The notes beneath the pieces are model-generated. The model saw only the letters and a program-made list of their open reading frames with translations, was not told where the DNA came from and did not search any database. From a virus: a DNA stretch of 30,160 bases. Below, in pieces: positions 1 through 12,673 of the stretch. Both the position numbers and the translations under genes were made by a program. Position 1 is the stretch's first letter. Every line of letters begins with the position of its first letter. The stretch lies in IMG/VR virus record IMGVR_UViG_3300023281_002227, positions 13,538 through 43,697 of that record; one strand, 5' to 3'.

Positions 1-1306
1 GCGTGAGCGGGACATACGGGCAATAGAAGTACCCGCTATCAAGATAGCTATCACCTTTGTAACCCATCAAAATCTGGTTATTTGGGAATAGTGGATCTTT
101 GTACAGTCTCCAACGGTTGTTGACAGTACCAACATACTGAATACCAAGACTTGAAGTAAAGGTTTCAGAAGGGTTTGGTGCGAATCCAGCAGTTGCAGTT
201 TCAAAGATTGAAGCTACTTCTGGTGAAGTTACAATCCAGTTAGCACCACCTCTTAAAGTCTTACGGTGAACAACGTTAGTTAATTCAACGATCTTGACAT
301 AAAGAGCTTCATACTTTTCTTTAATTGTATCTCCAAGTGCTGTTGCAAAGTCCCAGGAAGAAACAGTTCCAGCATTTGTTCGCAAGTCTGTTAGGACTTC
401 ACGATCAATTTCTAGGTTAATTTCTTGGGCTAACACGGCGGTTAGTTCTGCTTCGGCATCAAGGTTGTGCTGAGATCTTAAATCTTGTTGTGCTTCATAG
501 GACCAGACAGCTTTAAGCTTTCTAGTTTTAGCAGCAATAGATTCTGATTCAACAACTAGGTTGATTTCTGGAAGATCAGTATTACATTCCATGTTATACT
601 CATATGATAGTACTAGACTATTGCTACCAGGTGCGTTATTCCAGGTCATAGTGATAAGACCGTTAGTAACGTCAACAGTACCAGCAGTAACTACATCAGT
701 TGGAGTACCAATAGCTGTGAAAGTGAAAGATCCACTTTCGTCAACTACGAATGTTTGAACAGCAGTTGCACCCTGGAAGACAGTACCTGTTATAGTACCA
801 GCTAGGACAGGAGTGTGCTCTAGAGGTGAAAATACTGAAAGAGTATCTGCACCATCATCTGTGCTGCTGCTTTCGTTCTCTATGAATTGATGAGAGTAGA
901 AGATGTTAAGATTAGCATCACCACTAGCCAATTGTTGTAGAGAGTTTACGTCGTCACCTGGGAAACCACCATTGTTATCAGCACCTCGGACAGAGCCTTT
1001 GTTGCTGCTATAACGGAATCTCAAGTAGTATACTAAACCAGTTGGGCCAAGTAGAGGTTGTACGGATACAACTTTATTAGCGATCAACTGAGGATAAATT
1101 CTTCTTACAAGAGGAATAGAAATTCTCTTGAATTGAGAAATGTCACCAGTGTCAGTAGACACTTCATTAATCAATCTTTGGTTTTCTAGCAATACTGCTG
1201 TGCAAGAACGGGTATAGCGGTCTCCGATATTGTCTAGTAAACCAGTTTGTGACCACTTACCTTCTAGGTCACGAGCTTCGTTTAAAAACTTTGAATTTGC
1301 ATTCAT
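1..1306 (-). CDS. 23: Major capsid protein, T4 gp23-like (3' end outside window)
   Basis: This is the main shell protein of the phage head. Reading the minus strand from the ATG at 1306 gives 435 open codons that run off the left edge, so the C-terminus is missing. Recognisable gp23 features are the segment LVRRIYPQLIANKVVSVQP (about residues 67-84) followed by GPTGLVYYLRFRY (87-99), and near the edge the typical YFYCPYVPLT. Residues about 160-240 form a beta-rich, Thr/Val/Gly-rich insertion like the accessory domain of many myophage capsid proteins. The N-terminus contains INE at 46-48, just before the conserved core, which fits the (L/I)xE site cut by the gp21 protease during maturation. 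It follows the scaffold gene by 20 nt, and AAAGG lies upstream of the start. Family assignment is firm; the cleavage point is inferred. Confidence 0.95.
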   Translation of the reverse strand, partial: MNANSKFLNEARDLEGKWSQTGLLDNIGDRYTRSCTAVLLENQRLINEVSTDTGDISQFKRISIPLVRRIYPQLIANKVVSVQPLLGPTGLVYYLRFRYSSNKGSVRGADNNGGFPGDDVNSLQQLASGDANLNIFYSHQFIENESSSTDDGADTLSVFSPLEHTPVLAGTITGTVFQGATAVQTFVVDESGSFTFTAIGTPTDVVTAGTVDVTNGLITMTWNNAPGSNSLVLSYEYNMECNTDLPEINLVVESESIAAKTRKLKAVWSYEAQQDLRSQHNLDAEAELTAVLAQEINLEIDREVLTDLRTNAGTVSSWDFATALGDTIKEKYEALYVKIVELTNVVHRKTLRGGANWIVTSPEVASIFETATAGFAPNPSETFTSSLGIQYVGTVNNRWRLYKDPLFPNNQILMGYKGDSYLDSGYFYCPYVPLT

Positions 1307-1326
1307 ATTTATTTAACCTTTCTTTA

Positions 1327-2241
1327 TTAGTCGTTAAGTTTAGTTCCAGCTAGGACTTGCAACTTATGCAATTCTTCTGGATCAAAAGATTCGACTAAAG
1401 TATTATCGACATTCTTCTGCGGAGTAGGTTCAGCAACATTATGTTCTGAAATAATTTCTACGTCTTCAGTGTGGGAACGTCCTCGACCCTGCACATTCTT
1501 TGCATTTCCAGCCCTCGCTTTTCTTTCATTCGCAGTAGCTTCAGAAATAAGTTCAGCAGCATGGCGAACTTGTTCATCTAGCTTCTTGTTTTCAACATCT
1601 AGTCTGACGTTTCGTGCTTCTAAAATTCTCATTTTGCCTTTTAGATCAGCAGCAAGTGTGTTAGCTTCTTCAATTTTGCTACTTGAAGCAATTGCATAAT
1701 CTTCGTCAGAGATATATCCTTGAACAGTTTCAACAACACGATCTAAAGCGATCTTGTGTTCAACCATACGTGGATCATTAAGAACATCTCTACGAGCTTG
1801 CTCGTATAGTTCTTGGCTTTTATACTCTAAATATGAGTTGACTTTTTCAACCATATATTCTTTCATTTTTGCTAATTTGTCTTCAGAAGCTTCGTAGACA
1901 TCTAATTCGATGTTTTCGTTTTTGCCTCTTTCAGAAATCAACATTTGATAAGCTTCTTCGTAACCTTCGTCGATAGCTTTTTCGTATTCATTCTTTTGGA
2001 TCTCTAAGCGGTTATAAAGATCTTGAATTACAGAATACGCTTCTTTGTATCCAGTAACGGCTGTATCTTCACTGTTCTTTAGCTCAGAATGAAGCTCAAC
2101 ATAAGCTTCTTCCAACTTTTCAGTGTACTCAGCTTCTAGAACTGTTTTAGCATTTTCTAGATATTCGCTGACTGCATTTTTGACTTCACCAATTTGGTCC
2201 TCTGGCAGTAAGCTGCTAAGTGCTTCAATGATTTTATCCAT
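1327..2241 (-). CDS. 22: Prohead core scaffold protein, T4 gp22-like
   Basis: This 304-residue protein is the internal scaffold on which the capsid assembles; in T4 it is degraded by the head protease before DNA packaging. It begins MDKIIEALSSLLPEDQIGEV and continues as a long, charged, almost entirely helical protein. The GYKEAY and GYEEAYQML segments (about residues 64-102) are typical of the family, as is the coiled coil at about 190-235. The C-terminal part is less ordered and ends in DPEELHKLQVLAGTKLND. Its start overlaps the end of the protease gene by 8 nt, so translation is probably coupled, and the capsid gene follows after 20 nt. The gene order protease-scaffold-capsid is the same as in T4. 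Function rests on both sequence character and position. Confidence 0.9.
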   Translation of the reverse strand: MDKIIEALSSLLPEDQIGEVKNAVSEYLENAKTVLEAEYTEKLEEAYVELHSELKNSEDTAVTGYKEAYSVIQDLYNRLEIQKNEYEKAIDEGYEEAYQMLISERGKNENIELDVYEASEDKLAKMKEYMVEKVNSYLEYKSQELYEQARRDVLNDPRMVEHKIALDRVVETVQGYISDEDYAIASSSKIEEANTLAADLKGKMRILEARNVRLDVENKKLDEQVRHAAELISEATANERKARAGNAKNVQGRGRSHTEDVEIISEHNVAEPTPQKNVDNTLVESFDPEELHKLQVLAGTKLND

Positions 2242-2974
2242 TAGTTAACCTCGCTTTGATGTTATTGGCTTCTTTTTGAACTATGCCACCCAAATACGCT
2301 AATAAGAGTTCTTTAGTGACTTTATTATCTATGCTTGAGTCTTCATTTTTAACTTCACTATCTTCATTTTTATGTGGAATAGTAGTCTCAAATGCGTTTT
2401 CTTTCTTATTAGAAACGCGATCTTGGAAGGCTTCAAAAGTTGAAGGATCGGCTACAGCATCGAAGGTTATCAAGCGATAACTTTCTCCAATAACTAGAAC
2501 ACCACTTTCATTAACTTTACCGTTTCCAACACCTCTGCTAGAGATTCCGATTCGCACACCATCATTAATTAAAGCTTTCAATATCTTTCCACATGGAGTG
2601 TTTAAGATATGTCCTTCTCCCATCAATGTATTTTTGTCCCACCAAAGTTTAGTAACTTTATGTGAAGCGTTTGCAAAATGTACTATAGAGTCAGTAGGGT
2701 GGTCTAATTCACCGCATAAACCACCGTTCTTGAGAGATTCATTTAATCTCTCAACGTTACTATTTAGTACCTCAAAAGGGTACGTTCTTTTATTCTTATT
2801 TACAGCGTTTGCTTCTTGGAATTTACCTTTAAACTTGACAGTCTTGCAGCCAGCGTTATCGCTGGCTTCGTGCAAGTCCATCTCATTTAAAATACATCCA
2901 ACGCCACCTCCATAGATCAAACAATCTTGGTAGGTAGTTCCAGGCATTCCGCTGTGTTCTAACAACAGTTGCAT
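2234..2974 (-). CDS. 21: Prohead maturation protease, T4 gp21-like
   Basis: This 246-residue serine protease (herpesvirus-assemblin fold, S77/S78-like) should cleave scaffold and capsid N-termini inside the prohead. Family landmarks are NKRTYPFEVL (near residue 57), the catalytic His in CGELDHPTDS, the SHKVTKLWWD strand, the catalytic Ser in GISSRG, and FDAVADPSTFEAF. The frame is open further to a TTG at 2989, but the strong ribosome binding site at 2980-2987 sits 5 nt before ATG 2974, so the protein starts MQLLLEHSG. That start includes LLE, matching the enzyme's own type of cleavage site and suggesting self-processing. The region after about residue 190 is a charged, low-complexity tail. 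The gene overlaps the scaffold gene by 8 nt and also contains several strong hairpins (2463-2876). Confidence 0.92.
   Translation of the reverse strand: MQLLLEHSGMPGTTYQDCLIYGGGVGCILNEMDLHEASDNAGCKTVKFKGKFQEANAVNKNKRTYPFEVLNSNVERLNESLKNGGLCGELDHPTDSIVHFANASHKVTKLWWDKNTLMGEGHILNTPCGKILKALINDGVRIGISSRGVGNGKVNESGVLVIGESYRLITFDAVADPSTFEAFQDRVSNKKENAFETTIPHKNEDSEVKNEDSSIDNKVTKELLLAYLGGIVQKEANNIKARLTNG
2463..2484. repeat. Hairpin inside the protease gene (3' part)
   Basis: AAGGTTATC and GATAACTTT pair over nine positions (one G-T) around the loop AAGC. It lies in coding sequence for SYRLITFD and is not followed by a T-run, so it is not a terminator. Confidence 0.5.
2730..2754. repeat. Hairpin inside the protease gene (10 bp stem)
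   Basis: TTGAGAGATT and AATCTCTCAA form a perfect 10 bp stem around the 5 nt loop CATTT. It is fully inside the coding sequence and has no terminator T-run. Confidence 0.65.
2843..2876. repeat. Two-part hairpin inside the protease gene
   Basis: An inner stem GCCAGCG/CGCTGGC with loop TTAT is extended by an outer stem CTTGCA/TGCAAG after a 4 nt bulge (TTCG), giving 13 paired bases. It lies in the first fifth of the protease coding sequence. Confidence 0.7.
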
Positions 2975-2979
2975 AAATG

Positions 2980-2987
2980 CTCCTCTC
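2980..2987 (-). promoter_or_regulatory. Ribosome binding site that fixes the protease start
   Basis: On the minus strand this reads GAGAGGAG, an excellent Shine-Dalgarno sequence five bases before ATG 2974. The upstream in-frame TTG at 2989 overlaps this site and cannot use it, so the shorter protein is preferred. Confidence 0.8.
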
Positions 2988-2993
2988 AAATGA

Positions 2994-4862
2994 TTATTGA
3001 TCTATTACTAGGTCGTCTTCCTTACCCTTGTTCATCTTATAAGTTTGTGGTGTTTCAGCTTTAGGAACATAAGGATTCTGTAGATTAGGCCATGTGCTTT
3101 CATCTCCCCAGTGAGCTAATTGTCCACTGTCTGTATCGATATGTTTTTCACCAGAAATCTTATAATCGCCAAATGGCTTCAAGATATAAGGATTATTTAA
3201 AGATGGGTAAACACCGTCGTTAGACCAGTTGCCCCAGCTTCTATTTCTCATTTCATCGGCTAATCCACCTTTATAGCTATCTCCGTCAGATACTGGTGCT
3301 GAGTCGCCCCAATCGCCTGTGAAGTCGCTAGCTGGTGCATAACCTTGTTGTGCTTTCTTAGCCATATCTGGATGGTCACCACTTACAGTAACGTGTGGAG
3401 TGTTAGAAACATTCCAATCTTTACTGTCTAAGTTAGTTTCAACCAAACTCCATAGCCATTCAGCAGCAGATGTTGCAGCTTCCGAAGAAGGCTCGATCTC
3501 TTGTTGAATGATAGATAGCAATTCATTCAAGTGTGTTGCAGCTTCTGCTTGCAACATACCTTCTTGCTTGTCGCCTGCTAATACATGTACGTTGCGAATA
3601 GCTTCGTACAGATCAACAAATACTTGCATTTCCATCTGTGTATTTTCGTCTAGATATGGGAAATAATCGCTGACAACATTCTTGAAGAATGAGTATTTGT
3701 CTTCGACATTTTCTTGTAGACTTGCACCAGATAAAGTAAGGATTTTATTAACACGATCAACATAGTTGTCATGTAATGTACGCAAGATACCTTCTGCCAT
3801 GAAATCACAAGTTTGATCATCATAATTAGTAGCATTAACTGCTTCTAATGAGTTCTTGATAATTTCAGATAGCTCAGTTTCAGTTAGATAAAGAGCTTGT
3901 GGCCATGCACTAGCAATGTTTTCTAATGTCTCAATAAGAGTATCATTATCAGACAAAGCATTTTGACGTTTTAGATCTGAAATTGCTTTCCAGAAGTTAC
4001 TATCTTCGCCAAGTGTTTTAGCACCATTACGTTTGATGATAACGTCAGTGTTAAGAGTTTTCCAATCAAACTCTTTCAATTTAGATTCGTTACGTAGTTC
4101 CATGTTAGGAACTTTTAGTGTAACGACATTGCCTCTCTCATCATGAGAAGCAACAGATTCATTAACTACAGGACCATATTCTTTATAATCTAAGTAATTA
4201 AATACACCTTCGCATAGGTTAAACCATTCTTTAACCATTCTCTTTTCACCAGGAAGCTTAATAATAGCACGATGGCTAGCTTTAGTCTTCTTGGCACCTG
4301 GACCTATTTTCTTTTGGCTCTTAATACGACCTCTAACACGTTTGTTAGTATCGCTAGAGCTTTCTTTAGTTCCATGTGATCTTTCTTTGACTTTTTTATA
4401 TTTTCCAGTACCATGTAATTTACCATCTGGTCCCATTTTTCTTTCTTCTCGTCTTCGGACGATAGTAGAGCCTTCATTGAAGGTTCTTCGGGTCAAAGGT
4501 AGATTTACATAACTTTCAAATAACTGGTCTGCTTTCTCTGTCTCGTCTACTAGAAGAGATTCGACCAAATCAGACAAAATTTCACGAGATTTTTGAATCT
4601 CGGTATCTTCGTCAATTACTAATTGTTCAATGTTTTCAAAGACAATGTGTCCGTTTTTCAATTGATAGTTTGCATGTACAAAGCTACCATCTACGGACTC
4701 ATAAATTACATCCTCGACACCAAAGCAACGTAGCTCGGCGTTAGGTAGGCCCAATGACCTAGCCATAACGTTCTCGGCTTCAGTTAACTCGTGCTGTGCT
4801 GACGATAATGAATCTTTTTCTATTCTCTCGAAAACATCATACCCAATGAGTCGTCTTTTCAT
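2994..4862 (-). CDS. Unknown 622-residue protein in the prohead gene cluster
   Basis: I do not recognise a family. The gene lies between portal and protease, the place of the small prohead core genes 67 and 68 in T4, so a head or prohead role is a reasonable inference. Residues 1-130 are mixed and acidic; about 130-200 form a very basic, glycine-containing stretch (RRREERK, KGKYKKVK-type, GPGAKKTK) that could bind nucleic acid or the acidic core. The middle is helical. The C-terminal 120 residues carry a degenerate Trp-rich repeat: SWGNWS...YPSLNNPYILK (about 542-562) and HWGDESTWPNLQNPYVPK (584-601), with an earlier DWGDSAP. A ribosome binding site (GGGAG) precedes ATG 4862, and 19 nt separate it from the protease start. 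Virion proteomics would settle its place. Confidence 0.75.
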   Translation of the reverse strand: MKRRLIGYDVFERIEKDSLSSAQHELTEAENVMARSLGLPNAELRCFGVEDVIYESVDGSFVHANYQLKNGHIVFENIEQLVIDEDTEIQKSREILSDLVESLLVDETEKADQLFESYVNLPLTRRTFNEGSTIVRRREERKMGPDGKLHGTGKYKKVKERSHGTKESSSDTNKRVRGRIKSQKKIGPGAKKTKASHRAIIKLPGEKRMVKEWFNLCEGVFNYLDYKEYGPVVNESVASHDERGNVVTLKVPNMELRNESKLKEFDWKTLNTDVIIKRNGAKTLGEDSNFWKAISDLKRQNALSDNDTLIETLENIASAWPQALYLTETELSEIIKNSLEAVNATNYDDQTCDFMAEGILRTLHDNYVDRVNKILTLSGASLQENVEDKYSFFKNVVSDYFPYLDENTQMEMQVFVDLYEAIRNVHVLAGDKQEGMLQAEAATHLNELLSIIQQEIEPSSEAATSAAEWLWSLVETNLDSKDWNVSNTPHVTVSGDHPDMAKKAQQGYAPASDFTGDWGDSAPVSDGDSYKGGLADEMRNRSWGNWSNDGVYPSLNNPYILKPFGDYKISGEKHIDTDSGQLAHWGDESTWPNLQNPYVPKAETPQTYKMNKGKEDDLVIDQ

Positions 4863-4908
4863 TGTTTAACTCCCATTTTAACTTAGGCTATAGAAACTTT
4901 GGTTTCCA

Positions 4909-4916
4909 TTTTTATA
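4909..4916 (-). promoter_or_regulatory. Possible late promoter of the head gene operon
   Basis: The minus strand reads TATAAAAA here, close to the T4 late promoter box TATAAATA, 47 nt before the start of the 622-residue gene. No other good candidate lies between this gene and the divergent gene at 5005. The similarity is imperfect and no transcript is known. Confidence 0.3.
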
Positions 4917-4935
4917 GTTTGATGGCACCAACTTG

Positions 4936-4965
4936 TTTACGAATATGATTTGCTGCTGCTATACA
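4936..4965 (+). promoter_or_regulatory. Possible sigma70-type promoter for the 5005 gene
   Basis: TTTACG (4936-4941) and TATACA (4960-4965) are separated by 18 nt, and TGC immediately precedes the -10 box as in extended -10 promoters. The predicted start would leave a leader of about 30 nt before ATG 5005. The 4863-5004 region otherwise shows only a weak GAAAC/GTTTC hairpin at 4893-4906. Confidence 0.4.
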
Positions 4966-5004
4966 TAGGTATGCAGGACACTTCAAAAACAAAGAGGACA
5001 ATCA

Positions 5005-5355
5005 ATGAAAACATTCAATAACTACTGCAAATTAAGAGAGTCTAGTGCCACTAATATAGGTAAAGAAACTATAGGAAATTCATCTTTAAGCAATCAAGAG
5101 GAGACACAATTGAGTGCTCTTTATCAATTAATAGATTATGCTTGGCAAAATTATGAATCTCAAATCAAAAGTGCATTCCAATCTCTAAGACATGACCCAG
5201 AAATTTCAAATCTACTGGATCGAATAGAATCTGAAGGAATAGGCTCTTTAAGGCGAGCCACTAGAAAAACAGACAAAGAAAGCGGTTTTGAAGATACAGA
5301 AGAGATTGTACCTTCAAGTGCAGACACTAGCCCAGGATTAGATCAACAGGAGTAA
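5005..5355 (+). CDS. Small unknown protein with a possible head-protease site
   Basis: This 116-residue acidic protein has no family I recognise. It starts MKTFNNYCKLRE, with LRE at residues 10-12. In T4, internal head proteins have a short N-terminal targeting peptide of this kind that gp21 removes after (L/I)xE, so packaging in the capsid is a possible role; that is inference. The middle (about 30-85) is helical, and the last 30 residues are acidic and probably disordered. GAGG lies before the ATG. The gene is divergent from the head operon and is followed 3 nt later by the small membrane protein gene, with a shared terminator at 5588-5619. Confidence 0.7.
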   Translation: MKTFNNYCKLRESSATNIGKETIGNSSLSNQEETQLSALYQLIDYAWQNYESQIKSAFQSLRHDPEISNLLDRIESEGIGSLRRATRKTDKESGFEDTEEIVPSSADTSPGLDQQE

Positions 5356-5358
5356 ATT

Positions 5359-5589
5359 ATGTTAAAATGGCTTTCGTTTATTGGTAAATCTCTAGTAATT
5401 TTGGCCTTAATGATAGGTTCATATTGCTTGGGACATCTTGCAGTTAATTGTAATTGCCCGTTTATGCACGGTTGGTGTCCATACGAAGAATGTATGTGTA
5501 GAAAACATGAAGAAAAAAGTAATGTAGAAAATATATTGGAAGAGGTTCAAGCTATTAAAAAATCTATTAAAGAAGCTCTTGAAGAATAA
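5359..5589 (+). CDS. Small membrane protein with a cysteine cluster
   Basis: This 76-residue protein has one hydrophobic segment near the N-terminus (about residues 4-29), then a compact cysteine-rich stretch (CNCPFMHGWCPYEECMC, about 31-47), then a charged helical tail (about 50-76) that could form a coiled coil. The six cysteines could bind metal or form disulfides if the segment lies outside the cytoplasm. I do not recognise a family. A good AGGAG site lies 6 nt before the ATG. It forms a two-gene unit with the gene at 5005 and ends directly at a strong terminator. Confidence 0.75.
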   Translation: MLKWLSFIGKSLVILALMIGSYCLGHLAVNCNCPFMHGWCPYEECMCRKHEEKSNVENILEEVQAIKKSIKEALEE

Positions 5590-5619
5590 AAAAAGCCCAC
5601 GCTATGCGTGGGCTTTTTT
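5588..5619. terminator. Bidirectional intrinsic terminator
   Basis: GCCCACGC (5595-5602) and GCGTGGGC (5606-5613) form a perfect 8 bp GC-rich stem with loop TAT, flanked by an A-run on the left and six T on the right. It separates the convergent genes ending at 5589 (plus) and 5640 (minus), so it can stop transcription from both sides. Confidence 0.92.
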
Positions 5620-5639
5620 CTTACATTATATCCTTAATG

Positions 5640-8198
5640 TTATCTTTCTTGACTAAAATCAATTTCTTCATGATCTATTTCTTTAGCATAACCCTGTATT
5701 TCTAGATCATATTGTTTAATTTCGTCGTTTGTAGGATCAGCCAACGGTACGCCTCCAGGTGAAACTCCACCTTCTGGTGCTGCACCTCCTCCTTCTTCTG
5801 GAGGTTGTCCTGACATATCGCCTTCTTGTCCTGACATATCGCCTTCTTGTCCTGGCATACCGCCTTCTGGTGGTGGTGCCCCTTCTGGTCCAAGCATTGG
5901 ATTTGGGCCTCCTGCTTCGGCACCTAATTCGGTTTCGCCTTGGCCTGGCTGTCCTACACCTAACATTTCAGGGTTTTGTAGCAATATTTGAAGTTTAGCA
6001 TCTTCTAATTTCTGGATTTTATTTCTAGAAATTATTTCATCTGCTTCATCATCTGTTAGTTGCATATATCTCGTGTACAAGTCCCAATCTGACATCAACA
6101 ACGACCCTTTAAGACTTGTAATAGTACTAATTCTAGTCTGCATTACTTCTGCACGACTTAATTCTCTCCAATCAGATGGAGGTGTCATTGTAATTTTAAT
6201 ATCATCATACGATTCTTCTGGAAAACCTCTTAATTCTAAGTGTCTTTCGCATAATTCTATAATTCCATCGATCACATGTGACTGGATTCTTTCAATCATT
6301 CTAGCAAATTTAACATCTTGAGCAGACAATGTAATTCTTGTTGCTTGTGTATCTTCATTGCTAAAGTAATTTTTAGGGAAATTAAGAGCAGTATATAACT
6401 TATTACGGAAATACAAAGCATCGTCAATTTCACCTAAATTTTGTGCTCCAGGAAGCGTATCAATTCTAGTATTGGCGTTTGGTCTAATGGGTAGCCAATA
6501 ATCTTCGTCTTGTGCGGGTGCGTGCCATCTTTCTTCAACTTGACCTGCACCACCTTGTCCTGATTTTCCTGTTGCTACTTTTTTCTTACGAAATTGGTCT
6601 TTAAGCCGTTCAATAAATGCTTCTGCTTTAAACGGTGGTAATTGTCCAACATCGATATAAAACACACGTCTTTCAGGTGCTCTGGTCAATCTATAGACAA
6701 GCATTGCATCTTCCATAAGACGAAGTTGATGTGCTGGTCCACGAGCAGGTTCAATTAAAGATTGTCCATAAGGATAGAAAGTTTCTCTATCATCACCAAT
6801 TCTAAAGTGAATAATTTGGTGTGGATCAAATCTAATAGCAGTTGCTTGCATTAAGTCTGCTTCAGTAGCTTGTGTGACTTCGGCCCTTGTTAAAGACTGT
6901 AGATCTGGACCTTCTTTAGACTGTTGAAACTCTACTAATCGTCCTCTTGTAGTTTCTAATCTATACATTGAATCTGGTGGTAATTCTTGTATTTTTAGAA
7001 TCCCATCTTTTGGACTGGCAGGATTAATTACATTCTCTACAAAGTAATCTCCAAAAATACATAATTTTTTAACAATGTTCCAAATCCTTCTATCAAGATT
7101 TAACATCTTGCGATGAAACATTACAAATTCGCATTCTTTTTTAACTTCTTCATTAGAACATTCGAGATGGAATATGTGATCATCTTCGCCTCTTTGACAG
7201 TTGTGCATAACAACTGAGTCCGTACAGAAGTTTTTATGTCCTTCTACAGAAAGGTCGTATACAGGTTGTTTAAGCCACTTAATTTTTCCTATAACACGAC
7301 GACGATCTCTCTTCTTTCCAAGCCATTTTAATTCTTTTAATGTATAGCCAGCTTTTTTTATCCAATCTTCACACGTCTTCCATTGATGACCTGTAATTTC
7401 TTCTATCTGTTTAACAGTAGAGCCAGTTGCGATTAGACGACATATTTGGTTTACTTCTTTATCTCGCTTTTCAGTTTCACCTAGTTTCCATTCGTCTATG
7501 AACTGTCTTTCATTCTTCCATCCATCTGCGAATGTAAAAATACGAGGAAATAATTTTGTACCAATATCGTTTTTAGTTCGATTTGCATCAATTTTATAAA
7601 ACGGCATTAGTTCATCATTTTGTTCTAGATCTTCTGCATTTACCCACTCGCCATCTTGTTTAAGGATTCTATGATCAGGTGTTACTACGAAATCGCTACC
7701 ATCATCTAAAAGTATTTTAATAGTTTGAGCTTCTTCATGAACTCTTCTAGGATCATAAGCCCAACCCAATGTATAGTCGTTTTTGTCGAAATCCCAACAA
7801 TAAACCAAGAAAGGTTCACCGTCATAATGTTCAGTCAGCCATTCAATGGTACGTTGTCCATGAAATAATGTAGCTATTCTTGTATGGCCACCGACACATG
7901 CTTCATCAGCAATAACGGTCATAGCCATTTCAATTTCTGCTACATTTCTAAGGCGTTCGTACTCTTTATATCTTGACTGGCGATTTGTTACAGTAGAAAG
8001 ATCAATGAATTCGTTACTATCACGTAAACGTACTGATCCTCTACCACCTCCCCAATAGCTGCCATCTTGACGTATGTCAGGCACAGCATCGGGACTGCCG
8101 ATACCTGCACCAGTTAGGTCAAGCTTATTAGCTGCCTTAGAGTAGGGGTCTTTTTCAAATGTATATGAAAATAATTTATACCAATCCCACCAGGGCAT
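5640..8198 (-). CDS. 20: Portal protein, T4 gp20-like, containing an intein
   Basis: The portal is the dodecameric ring at one head vertex through which DNA enters. The precursor is 852 residues, of which 101-333 are an intein; the spliced product would be 619 residues (T4 gp20 is 524). Portal landmarks include VTNRQSRYKEYERLR and EMAMTVIADEA before the intein, and after it RRIWNIVKKLCIFGDYFVE, PHQIIHFRIGD, YPYGQSLIEPAR and AMLVYRLTRAPERRVFYIDVG. LPGAQNLGEIDDALYFRNKLY and ALNFPKNYF follow. The C-terminal 110 residues are Gly/Pro/Glu-rich and contain three copies of a seven-residue repeat (5806-5868). A strong site, GAAGGAG, lies 7 nt before ATG 8198. Splicing is predicted, not shown, but the exteins join in frame at a conserved portal position. 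Confidence 0.95.
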   Translation of the reverse strand: MPWWDWYKLFSYTFEKDPYSKAANKLDLTGAGIGSPDAVPDIRQDGSYWGGGRGSVRLRDSNEFIDLSTVTNRQSRYKEYERLRNVAEIEMAMTVIADEACVGGHTRIATLFHGQRTIEWLTEHYDGEPFLVYCWDFDKNDYTLGWAYDPRRVHEEAQTIKILLDDGSDFVVTPDHRILKQDGEWVNAEDLEQNDELMPFYKIDANRTKNDIGTKLFPRIFTFADGWKNERQFIDEWKLGETEKRDKEVNQICRLIATGSTVKQIEEITGHQWKTCEDWIKKAGYTLKELKWLGKKRDRRRVIGKIKWLKQPVYDLSVEGHKNFCTDSVVMHNCQRGEDDHIFHLECSNEEVKKECEFVMFHRKMLNLDRRIWNIVKKLCIFGDYFVENVINPASPKDGILKIQELPPDSMYRLETTRGRLVEFQQSKEGPDLQSLTRAEVTQATEADLMQATAIRFDPHQIIHFRIGDDRETFYPYGQSLIEPARGPAHQLRLMEDAMLVYRLTRAPERRVFYIDVGQLPPFKAEAFIERLKDQFRKKKVATGKSGQGGAGQVEERWHAPAQDEDYWLPIRPNANTRIDTLPGAQNLGEIDDALYFRNKLYTALNFPKNYFSNEDTQATRITLSAQDVKFARMIERIQSHVIDGIIELCERHLELRGFPEESYDDIKITMTPPSDWRELSRAEVMQTRISTITSLKGSLLMSDWDLYTRYMQLTDDEADEIISRNKIQKLEDAKLQILLQNPEMLGVGQPGQGETELGAEAGGPNPMLGPEGAPPPEGGMPGQEGDMSGQEGDMSGQPPEEGGGAAPEGGVSPGGVPLADPTNDEIKQYDLEIQGYAKEIDHEEIDFSQER
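5806..5868. repeat. Three tandem 21 bp repeats in the portal tail
   Basis: A 21 bp unit beginning TGTCCTGACATATCG occurs at 5806-5826 and 5827-5847 (identical) and at 5848-5868 (two changes). On the minus strand each unit encodes a seven-residue Gln-Glu-Gly-Asp-Met-type repeat in the flexible Gly/Pro-rich tail. Copy number could vary between relatives through slippage. Confidence 0.85.
7200..7898 (-). other. Intein in the portal protein (233 residues)
   Basis: Residues 101-333 of the portal precursor form a protein-splicing element. It starts with the nucleophile Cys in CVGGHTRIAT (block A), has the block B motif VVTPDHRIL with the Thr-x-x-His, and ends with VYDLSVEGHKNF (block F) and SVVMHN just before Cys334 (block G, His-Asn/Cys). 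All residues needed for class 1 splicing are present. Between blocks B and F lie about 130 residues without a LAGLIDADG or HNH motif. This part contains a helix-turn-helix-like segment (about 255-285, TVKQIEEITGHQWKTCEDWI) and a very basic patch (KKRDRRR), perhaps the remnant of a homing endonuclease or a DNA-binding domain. The insertion point is in the conserved IADEA region. Confidence 0.93.
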
Positions 8199-8251: not shown

Positions 8252-8848
8252 ATGAAAAAAGTAGTATTCATTGTTACGCATTTATGTTCAGGCTCTTCTG
8301 ATTTGATGAATGTATTAAATGAAAATCCAAGAATTGATATTAAAAAAACAGATACAGTTTATGATCATCCAGACACTTTAAACTCATTATTTAATTTAGG
8401 ACATAAATTAGATAATACAGCAGCCGTATATGGAGATCAGCTTTTTTATAATATTTCACTCTCTTGTAAGCGTTTTTATGATTTTTCTAAGTTTGTCTAT
8501 CTGATTAGAAGGCCCGATCCGACTATAGCTGAAATAGTAGCTAATCCTAATTTTTCATATTCTATAGAAAGTGCGAGTCGTTATTACTGCTTTAGATTAA
8601 GAAGAATTTGTGAAATGGCTAGAAAAACTCCAGGATCAGTATTTTTAACTTGGGAAGATTTAGTTTATCATAAAGGGCATGAAGTACTTGAAAAGTATTT
8701 TAAATTGAAAGACCCGTTAAACCCATGTAATCCCACTATTGAAAAGCCAAGAGTAGACATACCGATAGATATTTTAGAAAGATGTGAAGCTAGTTATGAG
8801 CGACATCTTTATTACACTAACCAATTAGATTTAAGGCGTGTGCAATGA
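8252..8848 (+). CDS. Sulfotransferase-like protein
   Basis: Sulfotransferases move a sulfate group from PAPS to a sugar, peptide or small molecule. This 198-residue protein has the expected plan: an N-terminal strand and phosphate-binding loop (FIVTHLCSGSSDLMNVLNENP, residues 6-26), a central KFVYLIRRPDPTIAEI (80-95) corresponding to the 3'-phosphate site, and FLTWEDLV (131-138) late in the fold. The loop has Ser-Gly-Ser-Ser but lacks the usual Arg before it, so activity is not assured. It is short for the family. The frame extends upstream to 8219, but AGGAG at 8242-8246 places the start at ATG 8252. Its stop overlaps the next gene (ATGA), making it the first gene of a coupled three-gene cassette with an oxygenase and a glycosyltransferase. 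Confidence 0.7.
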   Translation: MKKVVFIVTHLCSGSSDLMNVLNENPRIDIKKTDTVYDHPDTLNSLFNLGHKLDNTAAVYGDQLFYNISLSCKRFYDFSKFVYLIRRPDPTIAEIVANPNFSYSIESASRYYCFRLRRICEMARKTPGSVFLTWEDLVYHKGHEVLEKYFKLKDPLNPCNPTIEKPRVDIPIDILERCEASYERHLYYTNQLDLRRVQ

Positions 8849-9630
8849 GACTTGTAATGGATACCCCAAAGTTTGCGGTATACGATGATGTTTTACCAGA
8901 AGAAGAATTTAAAAAATTGTGGTTATATGTTCAAAATGATATGTACGCTTACCCACATACACAACAATGGATGAAAGTATGGCGTTTAAATGATGGTACG
9001 CCTGTGGGAAGTAGAGATTATAAATACACAGAACGTCCTTTCAATAACCCAATAGATATAATCTCTGATGCAGTTGAAAAGGTTGTACCAAATCATGATT
9101 TTGTAAAACCTTGGGATGAATTACATATTCGTTCTTATCTTTATCCTAGAAATACAAAATTGTCATGGCATAATGATAGTGGATATGAAGGTGCTTTTAT
9201 TTTCTATACCCACCCTAGATGGGCATCTACTTGGGGTGGAGAATTGATGATACATGAAGTTCCTGAAGAATTACCCAAATGGCATCATGGAGATGAAACA
9301 ACAAAACCACATTTAGATCATCGTTGGGAAGATGCGGTTTTAGAAGCATATGGTATGGGAAATTATATTACTGCTAAACCTAACAGGTTAGTTATTACTG
9401 GAAAAAATGTCTGGCATGCTGTAAATCGAGTAGATGCCGATGCAGGCGATAACTCTCGATGTAGTGTTGTTGGGTTTTATAAAAAATATCCAGAAGAAAT
9501 ACAAGAACTAGAAGATCTACATGAAGAAGTAAGAGAAGTAGATAAAAAGTATCTTCCAGTTAAAAATATAGAGATAGAAACAGTAGACCCAATTCAAGCT
9601 ATGAAGGCAATCAATACAATTAAACTTTAA
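8845..9630 (+). CDS. 2-oxoglutarate/Fe(II)-dependent oxygenase, prolyl hydroxylase-like
   Basis: Enzymes of this family hydroxylate proteins or small molecules using iron, oxygen and 2-oxoglutarate. The 261-residue protein has the iron ligands His109 and Asp111 (SWHNDSG), a YTHPRW...WGGELMIHE strand pair typical of the jelly-roll core, the distal His191 (VWHAVNRVD) and Arg205 (SRCSVVGFY), which should hold 2-oxoglutarate. All catalytic residues are therefore present. The layout fits the prolyl-4-hydroxylase-like group known from several T4-like marine phages, but the substrate cannot be read from sequence. The ATG overlaps the stop of the sulfotransferase gene, and its own stop overlaps the ATG of the glycosyltransferase gene, so the three are translated together. 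An internal ATG at 8857 is an alternative start without a better ribosome site. Confidence 0.85.
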   Translation: MRLVMDTPKFAVYDDVLPEEEFKKLWLYVQNDMYAYPHTQQWMKVWRLNDGTPVGSRDYKYTERPFNNPIDIISDAVEKVVPNHDFVKPWDELHIRSYLYPRNTKLSWHNDSGYEGAFIFYTHPRWASTWGGELMIHEVPEELPKWHHGDETTKPHLDHRWEDAVLEAYGMGNYITAKPNRLVITGKNVWHAVNRVDADAGDNSRCSVVGFYKKYPEEIQELEDLHEEVREVDKKYLPVKNIEIETVDPIQAMKAINTIKL

Positions 9631-10475: not shown

Positions 10476-10808
10476 AGTATTTGTGTCTGTTAGAGGATCA
10501 TTTTTATGTTTAAGTTCATTTAGTTTATCTTTTTCATTATCAATCATAGAATCAAGATGATTGATCAAACCATGCTTCAACGTTTCCGTCATAGGATTAA
10601 GCATAGATCCAGTTTTTAAATCTAGCTTCCATTTATCAGCAGGTGTCATTTGATCGTTTACTAATCTCTTAGCCTTTTTATTTTCAGTATAAACGACTTC
10701 TTCTATGGCCCTAACAATATGATTGCGTGCCGTGCTGAAAGCGTTGCTCGGAGGCAACGCTTTCAGTGCTTGTTCTAATAAGCTTAATGATTTTTCAGTT
10801 TTTTTCAT
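10464..10808 (-). CDS. Small unknown protein downstream of terminase
   Basis: This 114-residue helical protein has no family I recognise. Its start codon overlaps the terminase stop by 1 nt, so it belongs to the terminase transcript and may act in packaging, but it lies after gp17 rather than before it as the T4 small terminase does. It begins MKKTEKSLSLLEQALKALPP and contains charged helices to the end. A 13 bp perfect hairpin (10735-10766) lies inside codons 15-25. The 3' end overlaps the glycosyltransferase gene by 12 nt, tail to tail. Confidence 0.7.
   Translation of the reverse strand: MKKTEKSLSLLEQALKALPPSNAFSTARNHIVRAIEEVVYTENKKAKRLVNDQMTPADKWKLDLKTGSMLNPMTETLKHGLINHLDSMIDNEKDKLNELKHKNDPLTDTNTLFD
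10735..10766. repeat. 13 bp perfect hairpin inside a coding gene
   Basis: CTGAAAGCGTTGC (10735-10747) and GCAACGCTTTCAG (10754-10766) pair without mismatch around loop TCGGAG. There is no T-run on either side, so it is not an ordinary terminator. It lies near the 5' end of the gene it interrupts. Confidence 0.85.
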
Positions 10809-12673
10809 TACCAGCCAAATTCCTTGAGTAGTTTGTCATATTTTCTTTTTACATCAAAGTCAACAGGCGGAAGATAGTCTTCGTCTGATAAACTAAATGG
10901 ATCGTCTTTATCTTCAATACTATTTGCAATCCAGTCTTCTGGAGAACCAGATCTAATCTCATTTCTTATTTCCTCATAAGCTTGAGATTTGAAAACTTTC
11001 ATCATTTCTTCAGGCACATTAGCACCAATTGGTATTCCTCGTAGTCTAGTGTCTCTAATAAAGAGAGCAAAACATAGAGCAAAAATAGCATCATCATGTT
11101 TTCCAGACTCTGCTTCTGGTTTTTTCTTTTGTGCATTAAATCTAAATGTCTTTAGTTCATGGACCAATCTTCTGCTGTTTATCCTTAAAGTTCCAGTCAA
11201 TAGTCTATGCTGTAATCCTTCTAAAAACACCATACGGTTTTGAGGTCCAGTTTTTATTCCTGGTCTTCCCGCACGTATATTCTTTTCCTCATAATAAAGG
11301 TTTTCGTATGCTAAGTCATGTTGTAGCGAGTTTAATACCGCACCACCAACAGAAGCATTCTCTACCACTATTAGAGCAGTATTGTAATAAATTCCTACTT
11401 GACTAACAATTTGAGACAAACTATGAGGCGGTACAGAGTTACTATAGAACTCTCCAACTTGTTCTAAAGTTCCTGAATCTAGTATTTGAAAACAACTATT
11501 ATCGCCTCCATTACCAATACCTTCTGCAACATCTACGCCTATTATATATTCGTGTTCATCAATAGGCTCTTTCCAGATCCATAAAGCTCCACCACCCCAG
11601 TCGAATTTAACACGTTCATTATTTTGGTTAATCCATTTAGGGAAGGCAGATCTTACAGGATTGCTATCTCTAGTTGTCCTGTTTAATTCTCCAACAATGT
11701 GACCAGCAATGAATGTTTCGCCTGATCCCAAGAATGATCTTTCAATTTCTTGTTGCCAAGCTTTCTCGCCAATGTTTGCTCTAGTAAGTTTCGCCCATTC
11801 AGGATTTGCATATTGTGGATGTTCCCAATAATCTAGATCGATGACATTAAAGAAGTTATCACCTGCTTCAGCTTCATGATAGATTTCTTCATACCAATTA
11901 CCTAGACCATTAACTGTTGATACAACATTTACATCTCCACCTGTAGCAATAACAGGATACATAGCTTTCCATTCATCGTACATTTGTGGAATAAATGCAG
12001 CTTCATCAATGATAATTAAAGATGCAGATTTACCACGAGCAGCTTTAGGCGTGTAGAAACATATTTTAGATTGTGTAGTATGGAAAACTTTTTCGTGTTT
12101 ACTCAAGGAAGAATTATCTGCCATGTAAATCCATTCTGGCATGTTATCAATTGCTCTTTGTGCAATCTCACCAGCAGCTACACCTTCACGATCTGTTTTA
12201 GACAAAACATAGATTTGTTGATCCATGCTAAACAAAGTTCTCCACAGCCCCCACAAGACAGAAACTGTTGTTAATCCACCCTGACGAAATTTGCTAATAA
12301 TGTTAAATTTATTTTTATTAAAATCATCAATAGTTTTATGTTGATAATTATAAAGAATAAATGGAATTGTACCGTGTACAGGATGCAAAATCTTAACATA
12401 CCTATGACAAAAATATGCAAAATTACCAGCACATTTTTTAATCTCAGCTATCTGTTGCTCAGGTGTAAATTTTTCTAAATCATGCTTTGTCTCGCCAATA
12501 GGTATAGACATTTCCTCTTCGGCAAAAGTATAAAATTTATAATAAATATCCTTCCATTCTTGAGTGTTTAATAAATCAGCCACATATTCATGTCTGTAAT
12601 AAAAATTTTCAAATGGTTCTTTAGGATAAGGATGTATTATCTCTACCTCTAGCTCTTCTTTTTTTTCGTTCAT
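10808..12673 (-). CDS. 17: Terminase large subunit, T4 gp17-like
   Basis: This motor protein pumps DNA into the prohead and cuts it to length; it is 621 residues, close to T4 gp17 (610). The N-terminal ATPase has a Walker A-like FRQGGLTT (129-136) in which Leu replaces the usual Lys, a Walker B SLIIIDEAAF (219-227, Asp223-Glu224) and the coupling motif VVSTVNG (250-256). The C-terminal nuclease has its acidic residues in YIIGVDVAEG (Asp381), ALIVVENAS (Glu438) and GKHDDAIF (Asp527/528). The start follows an AAGGAA site. On the minus strand, ATTAAATAT about 30 nt upstream of the start could be a late promoter. The neighbouring plus-strand genes on both sides are accessory, so this gene is separated from the portal by a foreign-looking cassette. 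Confidence 0.95.
   Translation of the reverse strand: MNEKKEELEVEIIHPYPKEPFENFYYRHEYVADLLNTQEWKDIYYKFYTFAEEEMSIPIGETKHDLEKFTPEQQIAEIKKCAGNFAYFCHRYVKILHPVHGTIPFILYNYQHKTIDDFNKNKFNIISKFRQGGLTTVSVLWGLWRTLFSMDQQIYVLSKTDREGVAAGEIAQRAIDNMPEWIYMADNSSLSKHEKVFHTTQSKICFYTPKAARGKSASLIIIDEAAFIPQMYDEWKAMYPVIATGGDVNVVSTVNGLGNWYEEIYHEAEAGDNFFNVIDLDYWEHPQYANPEWAKLTRANIGEKAWQQEIERSFLGSGETFIAGHIVGELNRTTRDSNPVRSAFPKWINQNNERVKFDWGGGALWIWKEPIDEHEYIIGVDVAEGIGNGGDNSCFQILDSGTLEQVGEFYSNSVPPHSLSQIVSQVGIYYNTALIVVENASVGGAVLNSLQHDLAYENLYYEEKNIRAGRPGIKTGPQNRMVFLEGLQHRLLTGTLRINSRRLVHELKTFRFNAQKKKPEAESGKHDDAIFALCFALFIRDTRLRGIPIGANVPEEMMKVFKSQAYEEIRNEIRSGSPEDWIANSIEDKDDPFSLSDEDYLPPVDFDVKRKYDKLLKEFGW

Follow-up and report, generated by a model that had tools for sequence, protein, structure and literature searches.

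The T4-type portal protein gene of this virus is interrupted by a segment at positions 7200-7898 (minus strand) that is, by its complete set of motifs and its modelled fold, a class 1 intein. It appears to be fixed throughout a portal clade, in which it has been inherited mainly vertically and not by homing. In the reading that we favor (probability about 0.62), a splicing-competent class 1 intein was acquired once, in the ancestor of this clade, has been handed down vertically since, and retains a 103-residue insert at the endonuclease position on which its splicing domain has come to depend.

The window, meaning the whole stretch of 30,160 nucleotides that was analyzed, comes from a virus record of 43,697 bases and has the portal gene on its minus strand (Table 1). 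The reading frame is uninterrupted over 852 amino acids, from which a spliced portal of 619 amino acids is predicted, and portal residues 357-722 match the Pfam family Portal_T4 in a match that starts after the intein. The neighboring genes fit a T4-type head module, with a head maturation protease at 2234-2989 and the terminase large subunit at 10808-12673. A 2OG-Fe(II) oxygenase-like gene (8845-9630, plus strand; PF13640, 1e-6) lies two genes away from the portal and on the other strand. The C-terminus of the portal (its last ~110 residues) is Gly-, Pro-, and Glu-rich and contains short repeats such as GDMSGQE, and similar P/G-rich tails are seen in other clade members.

Table 1. Features of the portal gene and its intein in the window (a slash marks an insertion point).
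Feature	Position	Strand	Basis
T4-type portal protein gene with intein	5640..8198	-	Open reading frame, 852-aa precursor; PF07230 1.4e-76, phrog_213 1.1e-74
N-extein, portal residues 1-100	7899..8198	-	Kept in relatives up to the junction
Predicted intein, 233 aa (portal residues 101-333)	7200..7898	-	PF14890, TIGR01445, TIGR01443; AlphaFold2 pLDDT 97.2; Z 21.9 to solved inteins
Cys1	7896..7898	-	Sequence; Cys in 84/84 distinct relatives with both junctions
Block B TPDH, intein residues 73-76	7671..7682	-	Sequence; Thr73 and His76 in 84/84
Insert at the endonuclease position, intein residues 97-199; predicted basic beta-hairpin and helix-turn-helix	7302..7610	-	AlphaFold2; weak Pfam HTH; 100-108 aa in 84/84; dN/dS 0.167
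HTH half of the insert, intein residues 141-199	7302..7478	-	AlphaFold2 helices; structural neighbors mostly HTH, Z up to 5.2
Terminal His232-Asn233	7200..7205	-	Sequence; His and Asn in 84/84
Cys+1 of the C-extein	7197..7199	-	Sequence; Cys in 85/85 carriers
C-extein with stop codon	5640..7199	-	Open reading frame and Pfam match
Site b, YRL/TRAPERR	6684..6689	-	Unoccupied in the window; filled in some relatives

The first-pass annotation had placed an intein here, and its boundaries are correct to the base, with motifs, Pfam and TIGR profiles, and the AlphaFold2 fold in agreement. The splicing residues that it listed (Cys1, the TPDH of block B, the terminal His-Asn, and Cys+1) are all present, and Cys1, the Thr and His of block B, the terminal His-Asn, and Cys+1 are kept without exception among the 84 distinct relatives with both junctions, the window included; the 85th carrier counted for Cys+1 (L101) is without the N side. 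The profile search that it suggested returned PF14890 (3.2e-10), TIGR01445 (2.2e-5), and TIGR01443 (7e-4), all over their cut-offs, and on these matches the intein call lies far above chance. Modeling from 73 aligned inteins predicts the intein (Hint) fold, which aligns with NrdJ-1 over 141 residues at 1.6 A (Z 21.9) and with Ssp DnaB over 136 residues at 1.7 A (Z 21.5). From this anatomy we infer that the segment splices.

The junction, IADEA/CQ, falls in the IADEA region of a T4-type portal, as had been proposed. It had also been stated in advance that conservation of the segment as portal sequence in intein-free relatives would speak against an intein; in such relatives, which are at most 39% identical, the portal runs on through the empty site (for example, ADDS/TQKN), with no gap in any of 26 distinct sister portals, an outcome in favor of the intein. 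The residue at +1 in these 26 sisters is Thr in 24, Cys in one, and Ser in one, whereas every carrier has Cys; retention of Cys+1 in the intein-bearing portals is just what splicing would require. The junction lies within the wing domain of the portal, a placement at the level of the domain only because the alignment to T4 is loose. With the junction in this domain, excision would probably be needed before the dodecamer and the prohead assemble. No synonymous constraint was seen in the codons near the junctions. The first-pass annotation considered the portal a less familiar site for an intein, and this holds only in part: portal inteins are not new as such, with six in cluster C1 mycobacteriophages according to the available portion of one paper (PMC5050341), and what makes this one unusual is its clade-wide fixation, not its position.

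The search for relatives relied mainly on the C-extein by itself, which kept the intein from influencing the selection. The best 80 of 274 relatives were fetched from the C-extein search and the best 80 of at least 594 from a portal-profile search (L078 as query), and 32 more came from a search with a divergent member as query; a first scan with the intein itself contributed 15 loci. Among 188 portal starts (repeats of one contig included), the intein is present in 149, five are cut inside it, and 34 lack it, although one of the 34 (L067) is a contig also cut inside the intein. Among the distinct C-exteins that BLAST matched to the window there are two groups with a gap between them, carriers being 50-100% identical over the first 165 residues and true lacks 25-40%. 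L128, the carrier that has diverged furthest, shares 46% identity with the L078 query. Down to about 46% portal identity, every fetched relative in which the junction can be seen has the intein, with broken inteins or frames in two (L139 and L015). Several loci were dropped before counting: those in which the portal frame starts beyond the junction or is truncated at the contig edge (L072, L081, L083, L085, L087, L090, L091), those cut inside the intein (L014, L061, L067, L089, L122), and those with the C-extein missing (L013), broken (L015, L139), or with the portal in two frames (L152). Most of L203-L232, in which the portal match begins after the first positions, were also left out.

Carriers occur in records of up to 532 kb. 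Among GenBank phages, six records match the intein and just one of them over its full length, the uncultured LR756511 (595 kb), with both intein and portal at 59% identity; it is alone in this among the 2,475 GenBank phage records with a portal match. A DNA pattern for an empty site, run over all viral contigs and able to catch 39 of the 84 carrier junctions if these were joined, found no intein-free allele inside the clade; its sole retrieved stretch was discarded as an unrelated subtilase-like reading frame, judging by the translation. In 20 records searched whole, the intein family is confined to the portal, bar weak matches in one record (G007). It showed no spread in 398 genomes of one bacterial phylum beyond the metagenome-assembled genome already holding L172, and plasmids gave only one N-terminal match, in a gyrB. 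The L172 contig is binned as Neisseriaceae, which may be a binning accident. The matches in G007 (the record of L020) are to both ends of the intein profile (5e-5 and 1e-4) in a 970-aa reading frame at 143398-144633, which reads as another intein-bearing gene in a phage of the same clade. In L139, a close relative of L073, the intein at 5208-6000 is short of ~75 residues including block B and has a frame break, pointing to a defective phage or a misassembly.

The descent of this intein (intein a hereafter) was followed on a tree of 83 carriers and 26 portals lacking it, in which the two groups are split at support 1.0 and a single change explains the distribution. At support 0.95, trees of the intein and of the extein from 81 portals agree on 14 splits and show no conflict. 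At support 0.90 there are 20 shared splits, and five extein splits conflict with four intein splits; it should be noted that the extein region available for these trees is short (225 aa). Given the conflicts at the lower threshold, some intein transfer is possible. Patristic distances of intein and extein correlate at r 0.72, compared with 0.15 or less in 1000 permutations. Intein a is without the hallmarks of a mobile intein, with no recognized endonuclease, no sporadic spread, and no tree conflict at 0.95.

A second intein, inserted at site b of the same gene, provides a built-in control. It occupies L093, L094, L172, L092, L089, and L131-L135 as an insertion of 261-427 residues, mostly about 405-427 (261 in L134), with intein blocks and Cys1 and His-Asn ends. 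Those scanned in L093, L094, and L172 have LAGLIDADG or Hom_end matches, and L134 has a weak Hom_end match only. On the tree used for intein a, site b needs nine changes for nine carriers, no fewer than the mean of 8.7 with shuffled labels. Close pairs differ at this site: L132 has the site b intein and L070 does not, with 97.6% identity over 450 bases of C-extein, and the same is true of L133 and L027 at 93.6%. Intein gain or loss therefore does happen in the portal gene, and intein a behaves differently; the site b intein carries an endonuclease and is sporadic, whereas intein a has no recognized endonuclease and is fixed.

The middle of intein a had been described as having a helix-turn-helix-like segment and a basic patch but no LAGLIDADG or HNH motif, and this description was borne out. 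No endonuclease family, LAGLIDADG and HNH included, is found in the window copy at E<=0.5 or among the 25 commonest of 57 families in 73 relatives. The fold prediction that had been recommended for this region gives a beta-hairpin and a helix-turn-helix-like arrangement with no recognized endonuclease; in the model the insert separates the two halves of the splicing domain and comprises strands at 119-122 and 126-129, a helix at 130-139, and, in its HTH half, helices at 144-157, 162-169, 173-182, and 187-194. Modeled alone, the insert reaches pLDDT 87.8. Several HTH families have matches, in as many as 12 of the 73 relatives and at best with 1.7e-4, the window copy itself matching HTH_7 weakly (E 0.024). 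The structural neighbors of the insert are mostly the HTH of response regulators and of AraC-type regulators, which may reflect just a common arrangement, and Foldseek against the PDB and viral models returned nothing at E<=0.001. Two other leads were rejected. A PDB sequence search with the insert profile put designed helical proteins at the top, with no stretch passing alone, and was put down to composition; and a match to the RtcB intein family NF052663 (E 1.1e-12), considered as kin of the insert, covers profile positions 71-175 only, which are N-terminal splicing blocks.

The insert is basic in all 73 relatives (mean net charge +8.2, minimum +3), with conserved basic positions such as 102, 119, 138, 154, and 200, whereas the splicing part averages -3.8. 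Pooled over 24 independent close pairs, dN/dS for the whole insert (Table 1) compares with 0.195 for its HTH half, 0.109 for the splicing part, 0.073 for the C-extein, and 0.050 for the N-extein, the most constrained part; these ratios are approximate, being Nei-Gojobori counts at dS of about 0.9. A decaying leftover should approach a dN/dS of 1 and shrink, and the insert, under purifying selection, does neither. The presumed outer positions of the recognition helix, chosen by helix periodicity and not from coordinates, change fastest among close pairs (0.375 vs. 0.240 for inner positions). The presumed DNA-reading face is thus the most variable part and the junctions show no codon constraint, both of which argue against sequence-specific DNA reading by the insert. 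The target of selection seems to be the fold, and perhaps also the overall charge.

Several explanations could be offered for a fixed intein that keeps such a domain. The intein may have been domesticated, with the HTH binding nucleic acid and either gating portal splicing, such that heads form only where phage DNA is, or acting as a DNA-binding regulator once excised. Purifying selection on an HTH domain with no recognized endonuclease, together with the conserved basic character of the insert, is consistent with this, and conditional intein splicing is on record for RadA and DnaB in the source material available. However, the outer recognition-helix positions are the most variable even between close pairs, the junctions show no codon-level constraint, and the fold matches to HTH proteins are weak, and we consider domestication unlikely. 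Its fullest version, in which huge phages domesticated an intein in a virion-assembly gene so that an HTH sensing nucleic acid would restrict splicing and head assembly to places where phage DNA is present, or so that the excised product would serve as a DNA-binding protein, strikes us as decidedly unlikely. That the insert is a still active but unrecognized nuclease, and the intein fixed by very efficient homing, is improbable. Residues 97-140 match the splicing part in conservation (mean column identity 0.68 vs. 0.67) and include conserved polar residues such as E130, R131, D135/E136, and K138, as a cryptic nuclease might have. On the other hand, such homing sits poorly with the agreement of intein and extein trees at 0.95, with the lack of a copy elsewhere in the 20 records or of an endonuclease family in the window copy, and with the pattern search (covering 39 of 84 junctions) that found no empty allele to home into; the site b intein with its LAGLIDADG shows what sporadic homing looks like in this gene, and intein a does not follow it. 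We find it highly improbable that the segment cleaves without ligating, as bacterial intein-like (BIL) domains do, or is never removed and plays a structural part in the portal. Fold alone cannot separate splicing from cleavage, and BIL domains are among the structural matches, but Cys+1 is retained by all carriers where the sisters mostly have Thr, and this counts against cleavage alone because the +1 nucleophile matters for ligation. The strong constraint on the N-extein is likewise at odds with it.

A single acquisition followed by dependence of the splicing domain on the insert would proceed as follows. A clade to which huge phages belong would have received the intein in its portal gene a single time, in its ancestor, and passed it on vertically since. 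If it follows class 1 chemistry, Cys1 would undergo an N-S acyl shift, the N-extein would be taken over by Cys+1, and Asn233 would cyclize with the help of His232 to yield the mature portal, probably before the dodecamer and prohead are assembled. The homing-cycle model, as given in the accessible part of its source, holds that, once an intein is fixed, selection maintains splicing alone while the endonuclease degenerates (PMC1654191). In the simplest account, past homing, fixation, and loss of the endonuclease would have left behind an accessory domain on which splicing now leans, and we infer that the insert was most likely the accessory domain with which a formerly mobile intein contacted DNA. 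Its retention would reflect a need of the splicing domain for it in folding or splicing, and possibly also non-specific nucleic acid binding; a benefit to the phage is possible. The intein itself would persist because only an exact deletion could remove it and because the clade yielded no empty allele with which to recombine. The fixed intein has kept a domain of near-constant length under purifying selection, without a recognizable endonuclease, while the portals of the clade diverged to about 50%.

Mini-inteins consist of a splicing domain only and are about 130-170 aa long. The solved Ssp DnaB (1mi8) and Mtu RecA splicing domain (2in0) have the same splicing fold as intein a (Z 21.4-21.5) and likewise no endonuclease, but solved mini-intein chains have 139-158 residues and intein a is longer on account of its insert. 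At 233 aa, with an insert of 100-108 aa in every one of the 84, intein a falls outside the mini-intein class. A closer parallel is the archaeal VMA intein TliVMA (PDB 7qss, Z 19.2), which has a class 1-type splicing fold and, in the portion of the paper available, an HTH-like accessory domain beside an endonuclease (PMC8966425), whereas the HTH-like domain of intein a stands alone; the two accessory domains are likened by description. The same portion reports that deletion of the endonuclease domain impaired splicing in several inteins (PMC8966425). The portal gene with its fixed intein makes two questions testable, namely whether accessory domains become necessary for splicing and whether a fixed intein gains a use for its host.

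The inteins of the C1 mycobacteriophages are likewise within a phage portal. Mycobacteriophage inteins are presented as sporadically distributed in the available part of that study, whereas intein a is fixed in its clade and lies in a T4-type portal (PMC5050341). Intein-rich large phages have been described, as far as the accessible sections of two papers go (PMC12363816, PMC7886860), and the word "intein" is absent from the main text of a paper on huge phages (PMC7162821). In the literature searched, which left most subscription journals outside, no account was found of intein a or of its fixation. Another huge phage (LR756508.1, L195; 484 kb) also has inteins in its portal gene, a reading frame at 1030-5190 whose translation reads as containing three; these apparent inteins are at other sites, one has what reads as an HNH-like stretch, and the best is 30% identical to intein a over the first 97 residues. 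Two further genes were noted from their translations. In L194 (LR756501.1, 735 kb), a frame at 2086-5568 reads as a ribonucleotide reductase with an intein weakly similar to intein a, and in Bacillus phage SP-15 (L193), a 539-aa "hypothetical" protein at 2674-4293 appears to hold an intein followed by a Walker-A-like stretch.
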